From Spirogloea muscicola (lineage: Eukaryota; Streptophyta; Zygnematophyceae; Spirogloeales; Spirogloeaceae), in the NCBI GenBank assembly GCA_009602725.1, contig WELB01000064.1, positions 651,080-696,022 of the forward strand: a stretch of DNA of 44,943 nt, given 5' to 3'. A program made the position numbers and the translations under genes. The notes beneath the pieces were generated by a model. The model had not been told where the DNA came from. It saw nothing but the letters and a program-made list of their open reading frames with translations, and did not search any database. This document shows positions 51 to 35,833 of this stretch, piece by piece; position 1 is the first letter of the stretch, and each line of letters opens with the position of its first letter.

Positions 51-1380
<1,330 letters not shown>

Positions 1381-17539: not shown

Positions 17540-20688
<3,149 letters not shown>

Positions 20689-20960
20689 GGTCGCCGCCGC
20701 CGGCGCCTATTTCGCCGCCGTGCGCCGCGGGCCGCAGGCAGGGCAATGCCGAGCTAGGGGAGCGGCGAGCGGGAGCTCCCCCGTCCGCGGCCGCCGCCGC
20801 CGCCGCCGCCGCCGGTTCCGAGGCGGTGATCTGGGGAGCCCGCGCGAGAGTGAGCGGGCCGGGGCTTCTCTCTCTCCCCGGCAGCACCTCAAGCGTGTGA
20901 CCAGCGCCTCGCCACGGAGGAGGGGGGAGCACCTGCCACTTTGGAGGCGGCCGCTCCAAA
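20689..20960. promoter_or_regulatory. Hexokinase upstream region
   Basis: GC-rich sequence with a GCC/CCG tract around 20790-20815 immediately upstream of the hexokinase start (minus strand). No TATA box or other recognised element. Confidence 0.4.
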
Positions 20961-23974: not shown

Positions 23975-24175
23975 GGTGGGTGGGGTGTGCCCTCCCCGGA
24001 AGTAGTGCAATACCGGGGCGACGCTGGCGGGCCCGAGCAGCAAGCTACCCCTGTGGGTCCCGCCCCCCCGAAAAATTAGATTAATATCATGTGACCCGAT
24101 GGGTCACGTATCAGATATTAAACTGATAAGAACAGATACTACACTTGATCTTAGCCAAAAGGCCGAGAAAGGTAT
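23975..24175 (-). ncRNA. U2: U2 spliceosomal snRNA
   Basis: Minus strand, about 201 nt. The 5' end is the plant-type ATACCTTTCTCGGCC, followed by TTTTGGCTAAGATCAAG and the branch-point-pairing GTAGTA within GTGTAGTATCTGTTC. Next comes TATCAGTTTAATATCTGATA, which forms stem IIa, then the Sm site AATTTTTC and 3' stem-loops with TATTGCACTACTTCCGG as in plant U2. The 5' end is fixed by the family. The 3' end is estimated from the terminal CCCACC and may be off by some bases. U2 base-pairs with the intron branch site in every spliceosome. Confidence 0.96.
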
Positions 24176-25167: not shown

Positions 25168-26586
25168 ATGGGCCTGCTGTCGAACCGCGTCGCGGAGGCG
25201 GACCTGGCGCCCGGCGACCACGTCTACTCGTGGCGCCGGGGCTACCTCTACGCCCACCACGGTGAGCCCGCCGCCGCCGCCGCCGCCGCCGCCGCAACTT
25301 GCTTGCGCAGAACCTGCAGCGAAGCTATGTACAGAGGACAATGAAGCGCTCCTGCAGCTGCCAAGATGCTCAGCGGCAAGATGCTGGCATGTCCACAGCC
25401 GGAAGGATAGCCGCTTTGCTGTTTTGCCGTTTTATCCGCCACGGCAGGAGTGGCTGCCTGTGTGGCAAGCAGCGCAGCGCAGCGTAGCGGCCTCCCTGCG
25501 CAGTCTGCGCCCACAGTTACTGCAACCGTTGTTGGCGCTGCCCAAAAGTAGCCGCTTTGGTCATGGAGCTCACTGTGTCATATGGGCTGGTCATGGACCT
25601 CACTGCGTCATATGGGCTCTGTTTTGATAGGGATCTATGTTGGCGACGGGCGCGTGATCCACTTCACGCGCGGGCGGGACCGCGAGCTGGGCACCGGCAC
25701 GCGGCTGGACGTCATGTTCGCCAGCTCCGCGCCGCCGGCGGCCGAGGACGTGGTGTGCCCCGACTGCGGCCTCCACGGGCTGAGCCACGGCGTCGTCGAC
25801 TCCTGCCTCGCCTGCTTCCTCTTCGGCTGCCCGCTCTACCGCTACGCCTACTCGGCCGACGTCCTCAGCTTCCTGAGCAAGCGCGGCGGCACCTGCTCGC
25901 TCACGGCGGCGCACGGCGCGGAGGCCACCGTGCGCCGCGCGCGCTGCCTCCTCGCCCACGGCTTCGGCGAGTACCAGCTGTTTGACAACAACTGCGAGGA
26001 CTTTGCCGTCTACTGCAAGACGGAGCTCCTGGTGCTGCCGGACCGCACGCGGCTCGGCGGCAGCGCCCAAGCGGCGTCCATCCTCGGCGCCTTCCACTCT
26101 GCGGCGCTGTCCGCGCCCGCCCGCATGCTCACCGCCTCTGGCCCCGCCGTGTCGCTCGCCCTCGTCGCTGGCTTCTACTACTGGGGAAGGTCTGCTCTCA
26201 CCAGCCAATATCCCATCTTTCTTCCCCTCCGAGGTCATTGCCGATGCAAGGCGCATCTGCTCCAGGGAATGCAAACCTTATCTCCACATTCTGAGGTGGC
26301 GTATCTCCTGACTGCCAGTTGCTGCTGTGCCACCCCCGCCTGCCACAGGGTTGCGCACGACATAGGTGTGCGGAAGGACGCTGTGCGGCTGCCTGTGGAG
26401 GAGCTGGTTGAGAACCTCAAGCTTGCCCAGCGCTCGGCCCGGGAGGCGGCCGCCCTCCGCGTGGTCGGCACCGCCGCGGCCCTGCTGGCCACTGAGGCTC
26501 GCCAGGTGTACCTCCTTGACGCCCCCCCGGCTTGTCCGCCACACTCCAACAATGTGGATTTGACCCCCAAGCTGGCCACTTCATAG
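25168..26586 (+). CDS. LRAT/NC-domain protein (NlpC/P60-like)
   Basis: Three exons, 25168-25261, 25631-26189 and 26349-26586, give 296 residues, in register with plant LRAT-domain proteins. It opens MGLLSNRVAEADLAPGDHVY, typical of the plant family. LRAT-like enzymes transfer or hydrolyse acyl groups by a thioester at Cys. Candidate catalytic residues are the histidines in AHHGIYVG (31/32) and VIHF (42), and Cys153 in NNCEDFAVYC. Between them lies a four-cysteine segment, CPDCG...CLACF, as in the plant proteins, a possible metal site. A Gly/Ala-rich hydrophobic stretch (SGPAVSLALVAGFYYWG) near residue 210 may be a membrane segment, and the C-terminal helix region VPVEELVENL-like (here LPVEELVENL) is conserved. 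The biological role in algae is unknown. Confidence 0.93.
25559..25618. repeat. 30-bp direct tandem repeat in LRAT intron 1
   Basis: Two adjacent 30-base units, GGTCATGGAGCTCACTGTGT... and GGTCATGGACCTCACTGCGT..., differ at two positions. They end 12 bases before the exon 2 acceptor, so they form the polypyrimidine/branch region. Confidence 0.9.
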
Positions 26587-27449: not shown

Positions 27450-30400
27450 TCAAGATGTGCCTAAGGCATACAAGAGGTCTCTAATGACCTCCTTGCCTTT
27501 CACGAAGTTCATCCACCGAAGCCTCTCGTTCTGCAAAGGCAGAGGGAGGTGATTCCACAGGTTAGAGGACAGTTGCGGCCCTTGCAGCAGCAGTTCTTAC
27601 ACTAACATTGAAAGTAGCTCTACAGTCGTCCCAATGGTGGTGCTTGGCAGTGAGTACCTGAGGTGCCGCATGATCAGTCGCTTGACTGATTGGCAGCTGC
27701 AGAGCTGGTGCGCCCAGCACTTTCTCCAAGAATGGCAACACCGGCAGTGTGCCGCCTTCTCTCACATACCTGCAACAGGACACATCCAGGCTTTGAGACT
27801 GCAGGACATGCAAGGTGTGCTAATCAGACAAATTGGTTGAACGTTGGTGGATCTACATTCTCTTGTCATCACCACCGAGTTGGAGCACTGCGCAGAGTTT
27901 CTATTACCTGCTAGACTAGCAGCTCGTGACACACATGTCGTACTTACGAGATGGTACTATATGTCAAGACCAAAGTGCTAGGTAACCAGACCAAGACCAA
28001 GTGGACATCTGCCAAGTAATCTGTGACAGGTATAAGACCCAAAGATACGTACATAGGCCGCATCCCCCACTGCTTCTCGATGGCCTTCTCAGCAGTTTTG
28101 TAAAAATGACAATTGGGATCAGCCAACCACCTGTCAGATTGTGCAAGCACGGATTTTGTGTCAAAGCAGGCAGCACATTTTGCACCTCACATCTCAATGA
28201 AAAAGGGAGAGCTTTGGACCCCTGCTTCTCCTGGACGAAGATTCTAAAGTACTCATGCAAAGACAACAGTACTCTTGAAAGATATAAAGTGTAACTGAGA
28301 CTTGCTCAGTGTATCTGTTTTGCTGGTGAGTCACGCACGTGGCAGTCCAGACACCATTTTAGCCAAACTATCTTTTGCTTTAGCTTCGGACTGAGAAGCC
28401 AGATGTAAGACTATCTGACTCTAAACAATGAGAGTAATAGCACTACACAACACAAGATTGAACACATCACTCACCAGTCTCCAACGTGAGCGACTCTAAC
28501 GTTGATCTTGTTGCCAACTGACCGCAACTTTGCAAATTCATGATTGATGTGACCTCGGAACTTGTCCACAAGCCTCTCTGGGTTCTGGTCAGGCACGTGT
28601 CTGATACAGACCTGAAAGCACCACAACAAAGGCCTCCAGGCATGAAGGACAGAAGCAAATCGGGCACGCGTCTTTCTTCAAGCTCCACAATTAAGCTTTA
28701 CTGACTATGCATATCCTGTGTTACAAGCATGGCCATCTCAAGCATACACTTCCAAAAATGATGTCATCATGCTCCCTTATCAGCAAACATGACTGTGCTT
28801 AGGAGGTACCAATCTCCAAAAACCTTGACCGAGAGACGCACCCTGGCTGTGCAGCTCCTTGGAATGACCGACCATCCATGTGCTGCTGAATCAATGCCAG
28901 TTATGCTAAGTGATGGGTTTCGCCACCTATTTAGCAGGACATCTTTTGGAGAGGAGGCTGCTAGAGCTCTCAATCCACTTGCAACCTGCGCTTGCCAGGT
29001 ACAGGTGCAGGCCAGTGAGACGAGCTTCCACAAGCTGGCCAAGCGAGTGGACTATCCTTTCTTCAGCATGGAACACTAGCTTCAGAATGAAGCAAAGTGC
29101 AGGAGTACAACTGCATAAACAGAATGACCTTGTAGTCCTCGAGTTGGAAGGACAGCTCCTCATAGAGCGCTGCTTCCTCATCATCCAAAGGCTTTACATC
29201 ATCGTAGAAGCCTGGAACAAGCACATGTTAAGCCCACATTATACCACTTCATTGTACCAGAAAGCACTCCAAGTGGACCTCGAATGCATACTCAATACAG
29301 TATCAAGCAGCAATCTGAAGGCATAATATCACTGCCTTGGCAAAACTTCAAAAGCATCGTATAAGCAAACCTGGAATGAGGATCATATTGTTGGAGTCAA
29401 CAAGGTGAGAGAGGACAGTCACAAGGTCATTCATGGGCTCGGAGAAAGCTCCTCCATCTGTGCCAGAATGAAGGTCCTTCGCAGGCCCGTTGACCTCCAC
29501 TTCGAGGCAGATTAAACCCCTCATGCCATATGTCAAGCAAGGGTACTCATTGCTGCAGGTTGGACAAGACATACTTTGAGACAAGTGGCAGAACATACTT
29601 TGAGACAAGTGGCAGATGAGCCATTCTGTGGTGCTCTGTAGTCTGGGTTCCGTAAGCAAGGTCATGTATGACGTATGTTGTGCAGCAAGCACTGCCAGAC
29701 TTGCGGGTGCTCAAAAAATCTAATATCGCAAATCTGTGCATTGTGAGTACTGCTGCAGCACAAAGAGTCACTGACTTGAACCAGGAGCCACTGGCCGACA
29801 GGATGAAGCCCGTGCCCTCAAACCACTCAAGGTTAGCTTGCACAGCCTCTCTGAAGCCCTGCACACAAGTGTAGACCAGCCTGTGATGCTGAGCAGCTGG
29901 TTCCACCCCAACTCTGAGTGCAGTACAAGGGAACAAGTACAAGTGGGAAACCCAAGAAGACCTTAAGGTGATGGTGCTGTCAAGTATATGAACATTGATT
30001 CTAGTAGTGGCTTCCTTCAAGGGAAAGTACGAGCATGGACAAGGCTGTCATACATATAACCTGGCCAATCTAGACTATTACCTGCGAGCCGCTTTCCTGC
30101 ATGCCATCAATGATGAAGATAACATTGGCCTTCAACTCTCCGCTTGTCACTAGCTCCTGAAAAGAGCAGGCAGATACTTCATGTCTTTGAACAATTTACA
30201 CTGTGAACATGCTTTTGCACATTAGATCAGCATATACCGTTGAGCGACAGGCAAGAACTCAAAGCCGTCCACAAATGAGCTCTGTCATGTTGCTCTGCTT
30301 ATCAAATGGAAGCAAGCGCGACTAAGAGGACAGGCCCGCAACACTGACCAGAACGTCATGAAAGGCCAGGTCTTACTTTGACAGCAAAGATGGAAGCAAC

Positions 30401-33400
30401 CAAGGGCCCCTTGCTGTCAGAGACCCCTCTTCCATGTAAATAGCCATCAATTGCAGTAACATCAAATGGATCTGTGGTCCATTTGTCCTCAGCAACTTCC
30501 GCAACATCGTAGTGTCCACAGATGGCTACCGTCAGCTTGCTTGGATCCTGGGACCCCAGCGCCGCAAGCTTGACAATGTATTAGTATGTCTACTTATGAT
30601 GCTTGAGCCTGCAATTGTATGTCAGTAGCCAAGCAAGACTTGATGCAGACAACGCTACAGACCGCAGCACAGAAGCCATAACATTTCTGCCAAACAAATG
30701 GACATCTCCTAGACTGACCTGTACAATGCGGCCAAAGACAACTGGATTGGTGTTTTCAACTGTGACCACAAGCTTAGCTTCTGCCCCCAGGTCTTCTAGT
30801 AGGCCCATGAGGTACTTTGCCCCCTTCCATGCCTAGTCAGACATTTCACACAAGCACAATGTGAGCTTCATCTCATGCATCTCAATGTGCACCACAGTCA
30901 CTACAAGTATGTGATGATCTGTATTATTGTGAACCCAATGCTAAGTAAGATACTGAAGTTTACCTCTTGAGCCAGCACCCCAATAGTGTACCCGACAATT
31001 GATACAGATGCTGCTATTGACATGCCTAGCTACACAGCTGCAAGGGTGACCTCGAAAGTCACCAGACCGCGGTGGCGTAATACATGACTCTGTATCATGC
31101 ACAGACTGTCATGATGATCTCCCATACCCGATCTTGAGCAGACTTGGACTTGTCTGTACTGAATGTGCGGATGCGGACAAACTTCCTCAGCTTCTCCTCC
31201 ATGAGAGCATGCTCTTCTCGACTCCCACTTGTGCACTGAGCAGCATAAGTACCAGCTATCAGCAAATCTGATGCAGCCACACCTGCAAGTGTCATTAGGT
31301 CTCATAGCCTAATGATTGCAACGATGGCCCCACCTACAAATCTGCAATGTCCACCCAGAGCAACTTGCGGCAGACATGGGATACTAAAGGCACACACTTA
31401 AGTGGTATTGCGGCAGACATGTAATACTAAAGGCATACACCTAAGTGTACACCTCTCTCTGTAGATCTCAGTATTCACCAGTTGGCAACCAATACCTGGC
31501 TACGAATGGTCTTGGGTGTTGGTGGGCCAACACCAGAAGTGATGTCAGTCACGCCAACCTCCCAATATCGCACTAACCCGTCGCTGCCAGAGAGGCAGTG
31601 CATAGAAACCCATCAAGCCCAATAGCATGGCCGCTAAAGTGCTTGGGTTGACTCTCATGCTGCTACAAGTGCTCGTCATCAGCAGAAATCTCATACTCCA
31701 AGTGCAACTTCACAACTTACAGCAGACTAGTCGAGTGGCCCATGTAAGTACCTAGAGCCAGTGAGGACACCGTCCGCAGTGCAAGCGATAGACAGGAAGT
31801 TGGAGCCCTCGTGAAGAAAGATGCGCAAACATTCATATGTTACCAGGCTCCACATCCTGCCGCAGTGTAATTCAGGCTTCAGATGTTGATGCTAAGGACC
31901 AACAGCTGTCTGTCGGCCTCACTGCAAGTTCCTCATAAGTATTATACATATAAATGACTGAAGGCTACCTGATTATATGTTCTTGCCCTGCCTAGCCATA
32001 TTTGCCTGATATTCGGTGGAAGCATTGTACAGTGTCTACAATGTCATTCTAAACAGAGAAGACAGGGAACCAATTGTGCCAGCTTGCAGTCACTCAATCA
32101 CAACAAGTATCAAGTCGTCTGTCTCGCTGGCCAAATGGCATAAGCATCACCTTACAGTCTGGTCTCCTGAAGCACTGTAAAACTCGTCTCGTGATCCTGA
32201 ACAGTGCATGGGCAATATGGGACCGGACACTCAATATGCAATCTGCCTATGCTATGCAATGCAATTTGTTGCAACAAGCTTGTCAAGTAGCTAGATTATA
32301 GTAGCATCTTGAGACGTAAGAATGACCAAGTTTTCAGAATCAAAGGGCGTAAAATATAAGAAGAGATATCCAATGTAGAAAAACTGAAAGACTTGCTGAA
32401 TCGGGACACATAATACACTCACCAATAGCAAGGCCAAGGACGTCATCTGAGTGTCCTGTAATAGTAGTGATGCAAGAGAGAGTGGCAAGGTCCCATATTC
32501 TGATCGTATTGTCCCTTGAGCCTGCTCAGACCCAATAACTGCCTTGAGAATCACAGCGTTGCTAACCACAATGAAGGCCAGATATATCAGTCACAAACAA
32601 TAACAAACTCAGCTTCATTATGTTTCTGCTACAGTGCAAGGATTGAAATTCAGTCAACAATATCATAGAGAATGGTTTTTAGCAGATATCCTGACCGCTG
32701 AGGAGGCGCCCATCGCTTCTCTCAGCTTCCTGGATGGCTGCCAGGGCCATGACACCCCCTTTGTGACCATATAATGTAGCTACACAGCAAGCAGTGGCTA
32801 AACTCCACACCTGCACATGCAAGACTTGACAGATATAAAGGGTGTCCCTTAGCTCAGTCGCTGGTAATTGCAGCTCTATATAAGTAACACGGAAAGCCAT
32901 TGCTTCAATTGAAAGCATAAAGCAAAGCAAAAAATCTGCCCGCGCTTTGTACGCCATGCCGACCTTGACAAAACCATCGCCAGCCCCACTGCAGAGGAAG
33001 GGGTTGCACATCACAAGTGCATACACCCGGCTGCAGTGCCCCATCCTCTCAGTGTCAGTCAAAACCAAAGTCGGCTCCGTACTTGTACACGAGGATTCAG
33101 GAAGCCACCGAGGACGTGAAGGAGATGTGCCTGATGAGTTCTGCAAATCACTGTAAGAGGTCGAAGGCTCTGCAAGTACAAGCTGAGTGCCGGCCTCGTT
33201 GAAGAAGGCCTCCCTTTCATGGGGAGCAATGGTCATGGATGCCACCTTCTCTAGCAGAGGGTGGATTTTGGCAGAGTTCCATCGTTCCAAACTATCGAGT
33301 ACAGGCGTCTCTTCGTGTCCATTAGGCAATGCTGTGCTCTCAGCATTGACAGGCAGAATGAGGCTCACAAATTTCTTTGACCTCTCAAGCTCATTATCCG

Positions 33401-35833
33401 CTTTGACAACCTGTGCATGGCTGTGACTCCCCTGTATCCGACCACTACCATTAGCAGTCTGACTTGCATCGGTGCTGGACTGAAGCGCGCGGTCCCCATT
33501 CTCTCTTGGACTTTTCGCTGCTTTATCTGGCACCTCAGTGGAGTCTCCCTGGAGTGGTGCAGACGAGCTGAAAGCTCCACTACTTTGGCCAGGTCTGTCA
33601 GCCCCTCTGGCGACAACCTCCTTGGTAGTGACGCCCCTGCGATTGCAGCGTATGATAGACGTGCCAGCTGGACCAGCCACCGCCCGTCCCTGCGCAAGTG
33701 CCAGCGCGAATACGTCCCCATCCGAGTGCCTGAGGCTTGAGAGCAGCTTGAAGGACGCCATGTCCCAGATCTTCACAACCCGGGTGCTCGAGCTGTACAG
33801 GAGTCCGTTGTGGACGTTCAGTGAGAAGATGGTCTGACTATGGCCAGTGAGCTCCTTCACGCAGCGAAACTCCTTGAGGTCGTACAGCCTGATGACGCCT
33901 TCCTGTGAGCCCGAGACAACCTTCTTGCCATCCACTGCCAGCGCCAGCACAGGCGATCCATGTCCAGTCATGGTGTGACGAGGAGAGGTCACAAGAGGCA
34001 CATCTGCAGGTGGAAGCATTGCCCCAGGCTCCTTCTTAAGTGAGATCTTCAATGAGGTGGAAGAGCAGCTTGCAAGGGCCTTGAAACTGCGAGATATGTC
34101 CCGCTGCACTGCAGGTGGCGCTCCTATTGGTACCAATATGAGGTCCACAAATTCACCCTTGAAGCGAGTCATGACCACCATGGTGTTGCGGGGAACCTGC
34201 AAACGGAACCAAGACAGGATAACCGGGATTAAGCTAGACCCAGGGAGCAACAACCCATTATTGCCATGGCTTTGTTGTTGACTGCGTGGTCTCTACCAAC
34301 AGCAGCTTGCATCTCGTGCAACTCAGTTGTGGTGGCCTCTGGAGGGACGAGTGGTATGTCTCAGACCTGTATCCAATCAGCACTCTCATCCGTGAGCGGC
34401 TCTGATGCAACGATTCCAAGAAGGCCACGCCGGTCTGAGTGCTTCACAAAGTACTCATTGCTCTTCCTGTTCACACACTCGAACTTGGAGCCAGAAGCAT
34501 AGTACAAAGAGGCCCCTGGTTCCCCAACAATATTGGTATAGCGAGTTGAGACAACTGTCTTTCCATCAGAGACAACAAAGTTCAATAGGCTTTCCTCCTG
34601 ACCAAGGCCAGCCTCTGAACATATGCGATTTATGAGGTCGATTGTCGCGTTCATCTTTGCCACCAACTCCTCTGCCAATCTCACAGAACGCTGTCAGTCT
34701 AAGAGCCGAAGCAAATATCTTTGCTCTGACTCAGATGCAGCATGATATTAACTAGTGAAGTTACAAGGGAAGCAATACTGGCCTTCAAACACTGCTGCAT
34801 TTCTGACTAGAAGCTGCTGCAACTTCTAGATGTCAGACTCTTGCCTGTCAGTGTCTAGAGAGCTCAAACTCCCTCACACCCAGTCTACTGAGGGACACTA
34901 CTTAAAGAACAATTCACACTTACCAGGTGGGAGCTCAATCATAACATCATCGATGTTATTGAGGAAGAGCGCAAAACATATGCCTGAGTCAGACTCAAAG
35001 CTGGGACACTGCTCATAGACATCATCGCGGAGTGTATCTAAGAGGCGACGCCGGACGAGGTTGAAGCCCCCCACACCACCATTGTGCATCCATAAGTACC
35101 TTCCACAGACAAAGGGCTGCAGCAAACCACTACTAAGTGTTAGAACCCTGACAATCTGCTGCAGCTCCCTGTTCATCTAGGCACACCGTCACGTGACTTG
35201 TGCTAGTGACTTCTAATTAATCTTCATGCGCACCCACTCTGACACACATGCTCTGAACCTTCGAAGTAGCTGCAGGTACAAACGCGTGGGTTTCGACTGC
35301 TGATCAATGGATAACGTGCTGCAATGGGCGCATTGCTGCGTGAAAATTCCAAAGTTCCTGCTTCTACATGTAAGCTGTAATTCGTGCTCTGCATATGAGC
35401 GGCCCAAGAGAAGGCCCTGAGTCAGAGCCCCAAAGGGCCGTGCAAAATACCCCTCTCCTGACTTGTTCAAGTGCAGCAAGTACCAAGCGACGACGGGCCT
35501 CGCCTGGCAATTGGAGTCGCTGACGGGGATGCCGGGGTAGGCGGCGCGGACGTGCGCGAAGATGAGCGGCGAGACGATCTTGTTGGCCAGGCGCTCGAGG
35601 TTGCGGTTGTTCCACGCGGGCTGGATGGAGGAGAACATGCAGGGCGTGGGGTCGCCATGCTGCCGCGCCTCCGGCGAGTACCAGCCGATGCCGAAGCCGT
35701 CGCCGTTGAGGTACCCATGGCCCGTCAGCCGCTCCTTGGCGTCGTACGACTGCCGCGTGAGCGACCGCGAGGGCTTGGTCACCAGGTCCGCCAGCAGGCA
35801 GGGCGTGCCGAGGTACGCCATGAAGCGGCACAT
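27450..35833 (-). CDS. DUG3-DUG2 fusion: class II glutamine amidotransferase + WD40 + M20 peptidase-like
   Basis: Twenty-one exons in transcript order: 35833-35504, 35116-34924, 34671-34367, 34196-32964, 32810-32696, 32521-32423, 32196-32151, 31856-31752, 31583-31496, 31235-31128, 30832-30719, 30568-30377, 30156-30082, 29858-29776, 29552-29371, 29211-29129, 28985-28842, 28611-28475, 28130-28053, 27769-27658, 27530-27450. Every phase closes, giving about 1300 residues. Residues 1-300 are an Ntn glutamine amidotransferase like yeast Dug3: MCRFMAYLG (nucleophile Cys2), NGDGFGIGWY, IFAHVRAAYPG, WMHNGGVGGF, LLNFVVSDGKTVVSTRY, IVASEPLTDESADWIQ|VPRNTMVV. Residues about 350-838 are WD repeats (VIRLYDLKE, VVKIWDMAS, FVKVWSLAT, TIRIWDLAT, TVRMWSLVT, LVRYWEVG) with a roughly 195-residue Ser-rich linker (about 466-659). 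Residues 839-1300 are an M20 domain like Dug2: GHYDVAEVAEDKW, GRGVSDSKGPL, DGMQESGS, CLTYGMRGL, KDLHSGTDGG, WRNPSLSITG, GDWWLADPN, REGGTLPV. The DUG3 to WD40 junction is inside exon 4 and cannot be a gene boundary. Intron 1 uses a GC donor. Confidence 0.9.
29564..29613. repeat. Short direct repeat in a DUG-fusion intron
   Basis: CATACTTTGAGACAAGTGGC occurs twice, about 24 bases apart, next to the exon 15 acceptor (minus strand). Confidence 0.85.
31366..31446. repeat. Direct repeat of about 38 bases in a DUG-fusion intron
   Basis: GCGGCAGACATG..ATACTAAAGGCA.ACAC.TAAGTG is present twice (31366-31403 and 31409-31446) with a few mismatches. It lies in intron 9, between the last WD40 exon and the first M20 exon. 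Confidence 0.85.

Follow-up and report, generated by a model that had tools for sequence, protein, structure and literature searches.

A 44,943-nucleotide stretch of the genome of the zygnematophyte alga Spirogloea muscicola (contig WELB01000064.1, positions 651,080 to 696,022; hereafter the window) carries a gene in which counterparts of yeast Dug3p and Dug2p, the partners of one glutathione-degrading complex, are joined. The questions raised by this locus are whether one chain is really encoded here, how widely such a form is distributed, and what it may do. According to the passages cited, the yeast complex Dug2p-Dug3p splits glutathione into Glu and Cys-Gly and transfers gamma-glutamyl groups (PMC6508711), and it participates in the degradation of gamma-Glu-met (PMC7617739); the complex is said there to be restricted to fungi (PMC7340319), and its route is termed fungus-specific (PMC9012958; PMC6508711).

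Gene structure and homeologous copies

Results of our analysis indicate that 21 exons on the minus strand (35833 to 27450) join in one frame with a single terminal stop, and that the parts of the chain follow each other in the order class II amidotransferase (DUG3-like), WD40 and M20 (DUG2-like). Such a frame had been proposed in an earlier, sequence-only reading of the stretch, and it was recovered when the gene was rebuilt from the exon end points given there, with one boundary moved. Exon 12 most likely starts at 30547 (acceptor ...CCCAG) instead of 30568, because both homeologous copies described below lack one base inside the 21 bases on the 30568 side and the public model lacks those 7 residues. 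The corrected coding sequence (CDS) of 3882 nt encodes 1293 aa plus stop. Introns of the window copy are of the GT-AG type in 19 cases and of the GC-AG type in one, namely intron 1. The donor of this intron (35503-35502) is GC in the window copy only and GT in both homeologs, and the splicing of the window copy may be weaker.

The joint between the DUG3 and DUG2 parts is located inside exon 4 (34196-32964, 1233 nt), with no intron there, and, as had been noted earlier, this exon takes in the DUG3 end motif VPRNTMVV as well as the first WD40 repeats. That two neighbouring genes, DUG3 and DUG2, were wrongly merged by the gene model is hardly credible, even if the public model is an annotation rather than a cDNA read of the locus: the joint is within one exon, the frame is kept in three copies, and the whole chain is present in transcript records of other species. 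A missed stop codon, named beforehand as an observation that would overturn the fusion, was not found, as the rebuilt frame has only its terminal stop and the homeologs are free of internal ones.

The genome of S. muscicola contains two further copies of the gene, on C10 and C1, and their segments are collinear with the window (C64), as expected for homeologs; a recent triplication of this genome is mentioned in a passage of PMC9065682, citing Cheng et al. 2019. Both copies retain 21 exons, the frame, the length and GT-AG at all 20 introns. The C10 model, which was built from the exons of the window, is letter-for-letter identical to the database protein P0001 (SM000010S04337), which is the best database match and whose annotated locus (s10:1062363-1070596, minus strand) has coordinates identical to those covered by the model. 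Pairwise ratios of nonsynonymous to synonymous substitution rates (dN/dS) among the three copies are 0.087-0.110 for the whole chain, 0.010-0.027 for the amidotransferase part (residues 1-300), and 0.019-0.027 for the M20 part. The preservation of exons, frame and splice sites in two further copies, together with the low dN/dS, confirms that the fused gene is real and goes beyond chance. An insert inside the WD40 propeller (aa 461-655, 33644-33060) changes fast, with dN/dS of 0.46-0.53 vs. 0.01-0.11 elsewhere in the chain.

Distribution of the fused form

A domain-architecture search across algae had been suggested in the sequence-only reading. With residues 1-330 as a query and the length of targets set to 0.55 to 1.75 times that of the full protein, 103 proteins were obtained. 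The M20-part query, for which only the 7984 candidates with the most words in common were scored, yielded 47 proteins, 22 of them already among the 103. The amidotransferase and M20 parts are present in one chain, in this order, in 103 of the 128 homologues, the window's own protein being counted as fused besides; in eight homologues the amidotransferase comes without a matched M20, and 17 lack an amidotransferase match. A few of the fused proteins have only a short M20 piece (e.g., P0069 and P0071). The fused form is carried by streptophyte, chlorophyte and red algae, among others, and the organisms named are, e.g., Closterium, Chara, Chlamydomonas, Volvox, Chlorella, Coccomyxa, Trebouxia, Bryopsis, Chloropicon and Cymbomonas, as well as Gracilaria, Agarophyton and Cyanidium. 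Transcript records from other species cover the whole fused chain. We take the record prefixes Chlat, Mesvir and CFRG to stand for Chlorokybus, Mesostigma and Creolimax, and the transcripts labelled "m.NNN comp" are presumably those of choanoflagellates. The single gene in the order DUG3-DUG2 stands as proposed, but the fusion is not a trait of this alga in particular, as many algae and other sources carry it.

Neither land plants nor animals occur among the organism-named rows of our homologue searches, in which the rows of short amidotransferases are the best 120 of 1790. Fungi hold both parts separately, as in Linderina pennispora (P0122, DUG2-like, and P0152, DUG3-like) and Coemansia sp. 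RSA 1933 (P0125 and P0183). In Closterium sp. Yama58-4, the protein P0007 has a DUG3-like part with Pfam PF07842 listed and no M20, and is partial, maybe from a faulty model. Among 80 bacterial DUG3-like loci, only one, of Acetobacteraceae (L082, 5001-6568), has an adjoining M20 match.

The occurrence of the fused form in many algae contrasts with the literature that calls the route fungal. Since many algae, among them streptophytes related to land plants, have both parts joined, models of algal sulphur and nitrogen recovery from glutathione may miss an enzyme. Database entries of identical fused architecture, such as those of Chara (CBR_g22949) and Volvox (VaNZ11_000709), are hypothetical proteins with the functionless label "Glutamine amidotransferase type-2 domain-containing protein", and one entry of Chlorella vulgaris owes its name, DUG1, to the M20 half. 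In the case of Euglena gracilis, a passage of PMC6351624 reports degradosome orthologues found by BLAST on contig GDJR01091960.1, more abundant under hypoxia; this is likewise a case of non-fungal DUG relative(s), on a single contig, with their Dug1-3 identity and joining left unspecified in that passage. No fused DUG2/DUG3 form is named in the titles or abstract beginnings searched, a scope outside which most subscription journals fall, so that a prior description is possible.

Origin of the fusion

In total, 78 rows entered the tree of amidotransferase domains. Besides the window, these were 43 of the 103 fused proteins, 27 of the 120 listed short ones (20 from eukaryotes and 7 from bacteria) and 5 of the 80 bacterial loci, together with two partial entries. 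In this tree, 66 eukaryote rows, including fungal DUG3, are separate from 12 bacterial rows (support 98/97). A single clade (100/100) is formed by 42 of the 44 fused rows and the two partial entries. One side of this clade is green (100/97), and the other (99/88) comprises red algae, Cyanidium, presumed holozoans, and the partial entries of Guillardia and Nannochloropsis. Fungi plus one other row (Colp12) form a separate clade (100/99). Two divergent fused rows are placed outside the main clade, but a constraint holding all 44 together was not rejected (p-AU 0.517); one origin of the fusion is therefore possible, while the direction, i.e., fusion vs. later splitting, is not settled. The relationship of the two halves to fungal DUG3 and DUG2, postulated earlier, is borne out by the homologue searches, by this tree and by the M20 residue comparison described below.

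The amidotransferase half

In a comparison of 110 rows, in which residues common to at least 95% of rows were considered conserved, the window protein has all conserved residues, including C2, H94, R96, H121, N122, G123 and D153, except at position 216. The N-terminal MCRF provides Cys2, which is found in all of the 67 rows not gapped at this column (the remaining 43 have a gap there), and H121, N122, G123 and D153 are present in 110 of 110 rows.

We consider it fairly probable that the single-chain DUG3-DUG2 would cut the gamma-glutamyl bond of glutathione, with WD40 and a predicted inactive M20 as its support; we infer the cleavage from the yeast complex. An alternative is that the amidotransferase acts mainly on some other gamma-glutamyl compound than glutathione, in an EgtC-like step or on gamma-glutamyl dipeptides. 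EgtC, the gamma-glutamyl hydrolase of ergothioneine synthesis, is likewise a class II amidotransferase with an N-terminal Cys, apart from its model, no amidotransferase model occurs among the 25 of 40 NCBIfam matches listed, and EgtC accounts for three of the four solved relatives (4zfj, 4zfk and 4zfl); moreover, the yeast complex also acts on gamma-Glu-met and transfers gamma-glutamyl groups. We hold this alternative to be unlikely, as the score of the window protein under the EgtC model (TIGR03442, 169.1 bits) is below the cut-off of 218.65, which places it outside EgtC, and the tree groups the protein with fungal DUG3 in the eukaryote set, apart from the bacterial rows. The other half of the chain is DUG2, and to our knowledge EgtC has no such WD40-M20 half.

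The M20 half

The protein has WD40 repeats followed by an M20 domain within one chain, as DUG2 has, and this is not a separate polypeptide pairing with DUG3: both halves are in one frame, and the protein is therefore classed by us as a fused variant of DUG2/DUG3. The M20 part was compared to that of CN2 in 113 rows, those of the window and of 112 database proteins; another 8 of the 121 matched rows had M20 matches too short to be used. The CN2 numbers and roles of residues are those we presume, with E166 as the catalytic Glu and D195 and H445 as metal ligands, and the motifs fit them. Positions H99, D101, H228 and E414 are conserved in 113 of 113 rows. The position of D195 is changed in 111 rows, fungal DUG2 included (to N in 101, to S in 9 and to L in 1), and remains D in 2; at that of H445, 106 rows have H, 5 have A and 2 have N. 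The catalytic Glu is retained in 70 rows and replaced in the other 43, all of which are among the 98 rows that have the amidotransferase half; none of the 15 rows without it shows a change. In a tree of 51 of these rows and CN2, built without the compared columns, the catalytic Glu needs six changes, four of them forced by well-supported branches. As each change could be a loss or a regain, and as the rows share ancestry, the restriction of the Glu change to fused rows is a lead and not a test.

At the positions of the catalytic Glu, D195 and H445, Spirogloea has Q, S and A (Q989, S1017 and A1265), Chara has D, S and A, Closterium Q, D and A, Chlat H, S and H, and Mesvir Q, S and H. The M20 half of streptophyte algae thus looks like a pseudo-peptidase, and the loss of catalytic residues suggests that it is probably not a working peptidase. 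This was missing from the earlier reading, in which M20 was a plain DUG2 part; its kinship with fungal DUG2 stands. Strong purifying selection on M20 despite the missing residues fits a structural, dimerising or ligand-binding role, and the natural loss of the catalytic residue suggests which half performs the chemistry.

If the M20 half were a working dipeptidase, the chain would take glutathione fully to Glu, Cys and Gly, like Dug3 combined with a Dug1-like enzyme. This seems to us quite improbable: the solved dipeptidases 2zof, 4ruh, 4g1p and 3dlj keep E, D and H at the three positions, all of which are changed in Spirogloea, and D195 is changed in nearly the whole family. The catalytic Glu and full set of metal ligands expected of an active M20 dipeptidase of the Dug1/CNDP2 type are thus absent from the window protein, which differs from these Cys-Gly or non-specific dipeptidases (4g1p, 2zof) also in bearing the amidotransferase and WD40. 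The yeast (Dug2p-Dug3p)2 consists of the same two halves, a class II amidotransferase and a WD40-M20 protein, and the M20 half of Spirogloea has its changed D195 position in common with the fungal DUG2 rows, but the yeast complex is made of two chains instead of one and its host is fungal, not algal; the Spirogloea M20 additionally lacks the catalytic Glu and one more metal ligand.

Proposed function

In the mechanism that we propose, Cys2 would attack the gamma-glutamyl bond and release Glu and Cys-Gly, as in the yeast Dug2-Dug3 complex, and two chains would pair via the M20 dimerisation domain into one equivalent of (Dug2-Dug3)2. The WD40 propeller and M20 would supply the support given in yeast by a separate protein, with M20 binding a ligand or holding the structure without hydrolysis. 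A 1:1 stoichiometry of the halves follows if the chain stays uncleaved afterwards, and a one-chain form with fixed stoichiometry is a convenient object for studies of the structure and mechanism of the complex. Cys-Gly could be cut by another peptidase, e.g., an M17 leucine aminopeptidase, for which the Spirogloea genome has matches; PMC7852106 deals with an M17 enzyme of plants that is active on Cys-Gly. Two ChaC matches are also present in this genome.

Several points weigh against glutathione cleavage by the amidotransferase half on an inactive M20 support. Position 216 is Ser in the window protein vs. Ala in 105 of 110 rows, and the amidotransferase superfamily also includes EgtC-type enzymes, so that sequence does not settle the substrate. 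Nor can sequence alone show a loss of M20 activity; most fused chlorophyte rows retain the catalytic Glu and His, and H1263, two residues before the changed H445 position, might replace the lost ligand. An exon-wise tblastn search of the genome with a CN2-type mouse query found the three fusion loci only (6 matches), a search which a diverged Dug1 could escape, and there are other, unclassified M20-family loci (25 matches to PF01546).

A broader scenario, possible rather than probable in our opinion, is that the DUG pathway is not fungal and that its one-chain form arose once, long before the present green and red algal lineages, and came to be distributed among algae and the single-celled relatives of animals. 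The tethered M20 would have become a dead scaffold that lost its catalytic Glu repeatedly, and in Zygnematophyceae and Chara it would be a pseudo-peptidase holding or sensing glutathione.

Features of the locus and neighbouring genes

Table 1. Exons and functional positions of the fused DUG3-DUG2 gene (window coordinates)
Feature	Position	Strand	Remarks
Whole coding region, fused DUG3-DUG2 gene	27450..35833	-	21 exons, CDS 3882 nt, 1293 aa; C10 homeolog model = P0001 (SM000010S04337)
Exon 1, with start codon and nucleophile Cys2 (35830-35828); next intron GC-AG in window copy only	35504..35833	-	both homeologs GT
Exon 2: MHNGG motif (Asn122 at 35083-35081), Asp153	34924..35116	-	
Exon 3: remaining amidotransferase domain, up to WIQ	34367..34671	-	
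Exon 4, 1233 nt: VPRNTMVV end, linker, first WD40 repeats, fast insert aa 461-655, start of second WD40 block; DUG3/DUG2 joint	32964..34196	-	
Exons 5-9 (32810-32696, 32521-32423, 32196-32151, 31856-31752, 31583-31496): remaining WD40 propeller	31496..32810	-	
Exons 10-11 (31235-31128, 30832-30719): start of M20 domain	30719..31235	-	
Exon 12, corrected start: GHYDV (His924), SDSKG (Asp956)	30377..30547	-	
Exon 13: DGMQESGS; catalytic Glu to Gln989 (30099-30097), metal-ligand Glu990 kept	30082..30156	-	
Exon 14: SASGSW; metal-ligand Asp to Ser1017 (29792-29790)	29776..29858	-	
Exon 15: DLHSG (His1050), inside M20 dimerisation domain	29371..29552	-	
Exons 16-19 (29211-29129, 28985-28842, 28611-28475, 28130-28053): M20 dimerisation domain, return to catalytic fold	28053..29211	-	
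Exon 20: REGGT (Glu1234), TDHAAPQ; metal-ligand His to Ala1265 (27666-27664)	27658..27769	-	
Exon 21: C terminus, stop codon	27450..27530	-	

Other features of the window include an open frame with an LRAT domain (25582-26586, plus strand), which runs convergently towards the end of the fusion gene, and a gene of U2 spliceosomal RNA (23980-24175, minus strand, 173 bits). Two hexokinase domains are matched by frames 17540-18145 and 20261-20959, both on the minus strand and probably exons of one gene, and frame 51-494 (plus strand) codes for a portion of the ribosomal protein L2 C-terminal domain.

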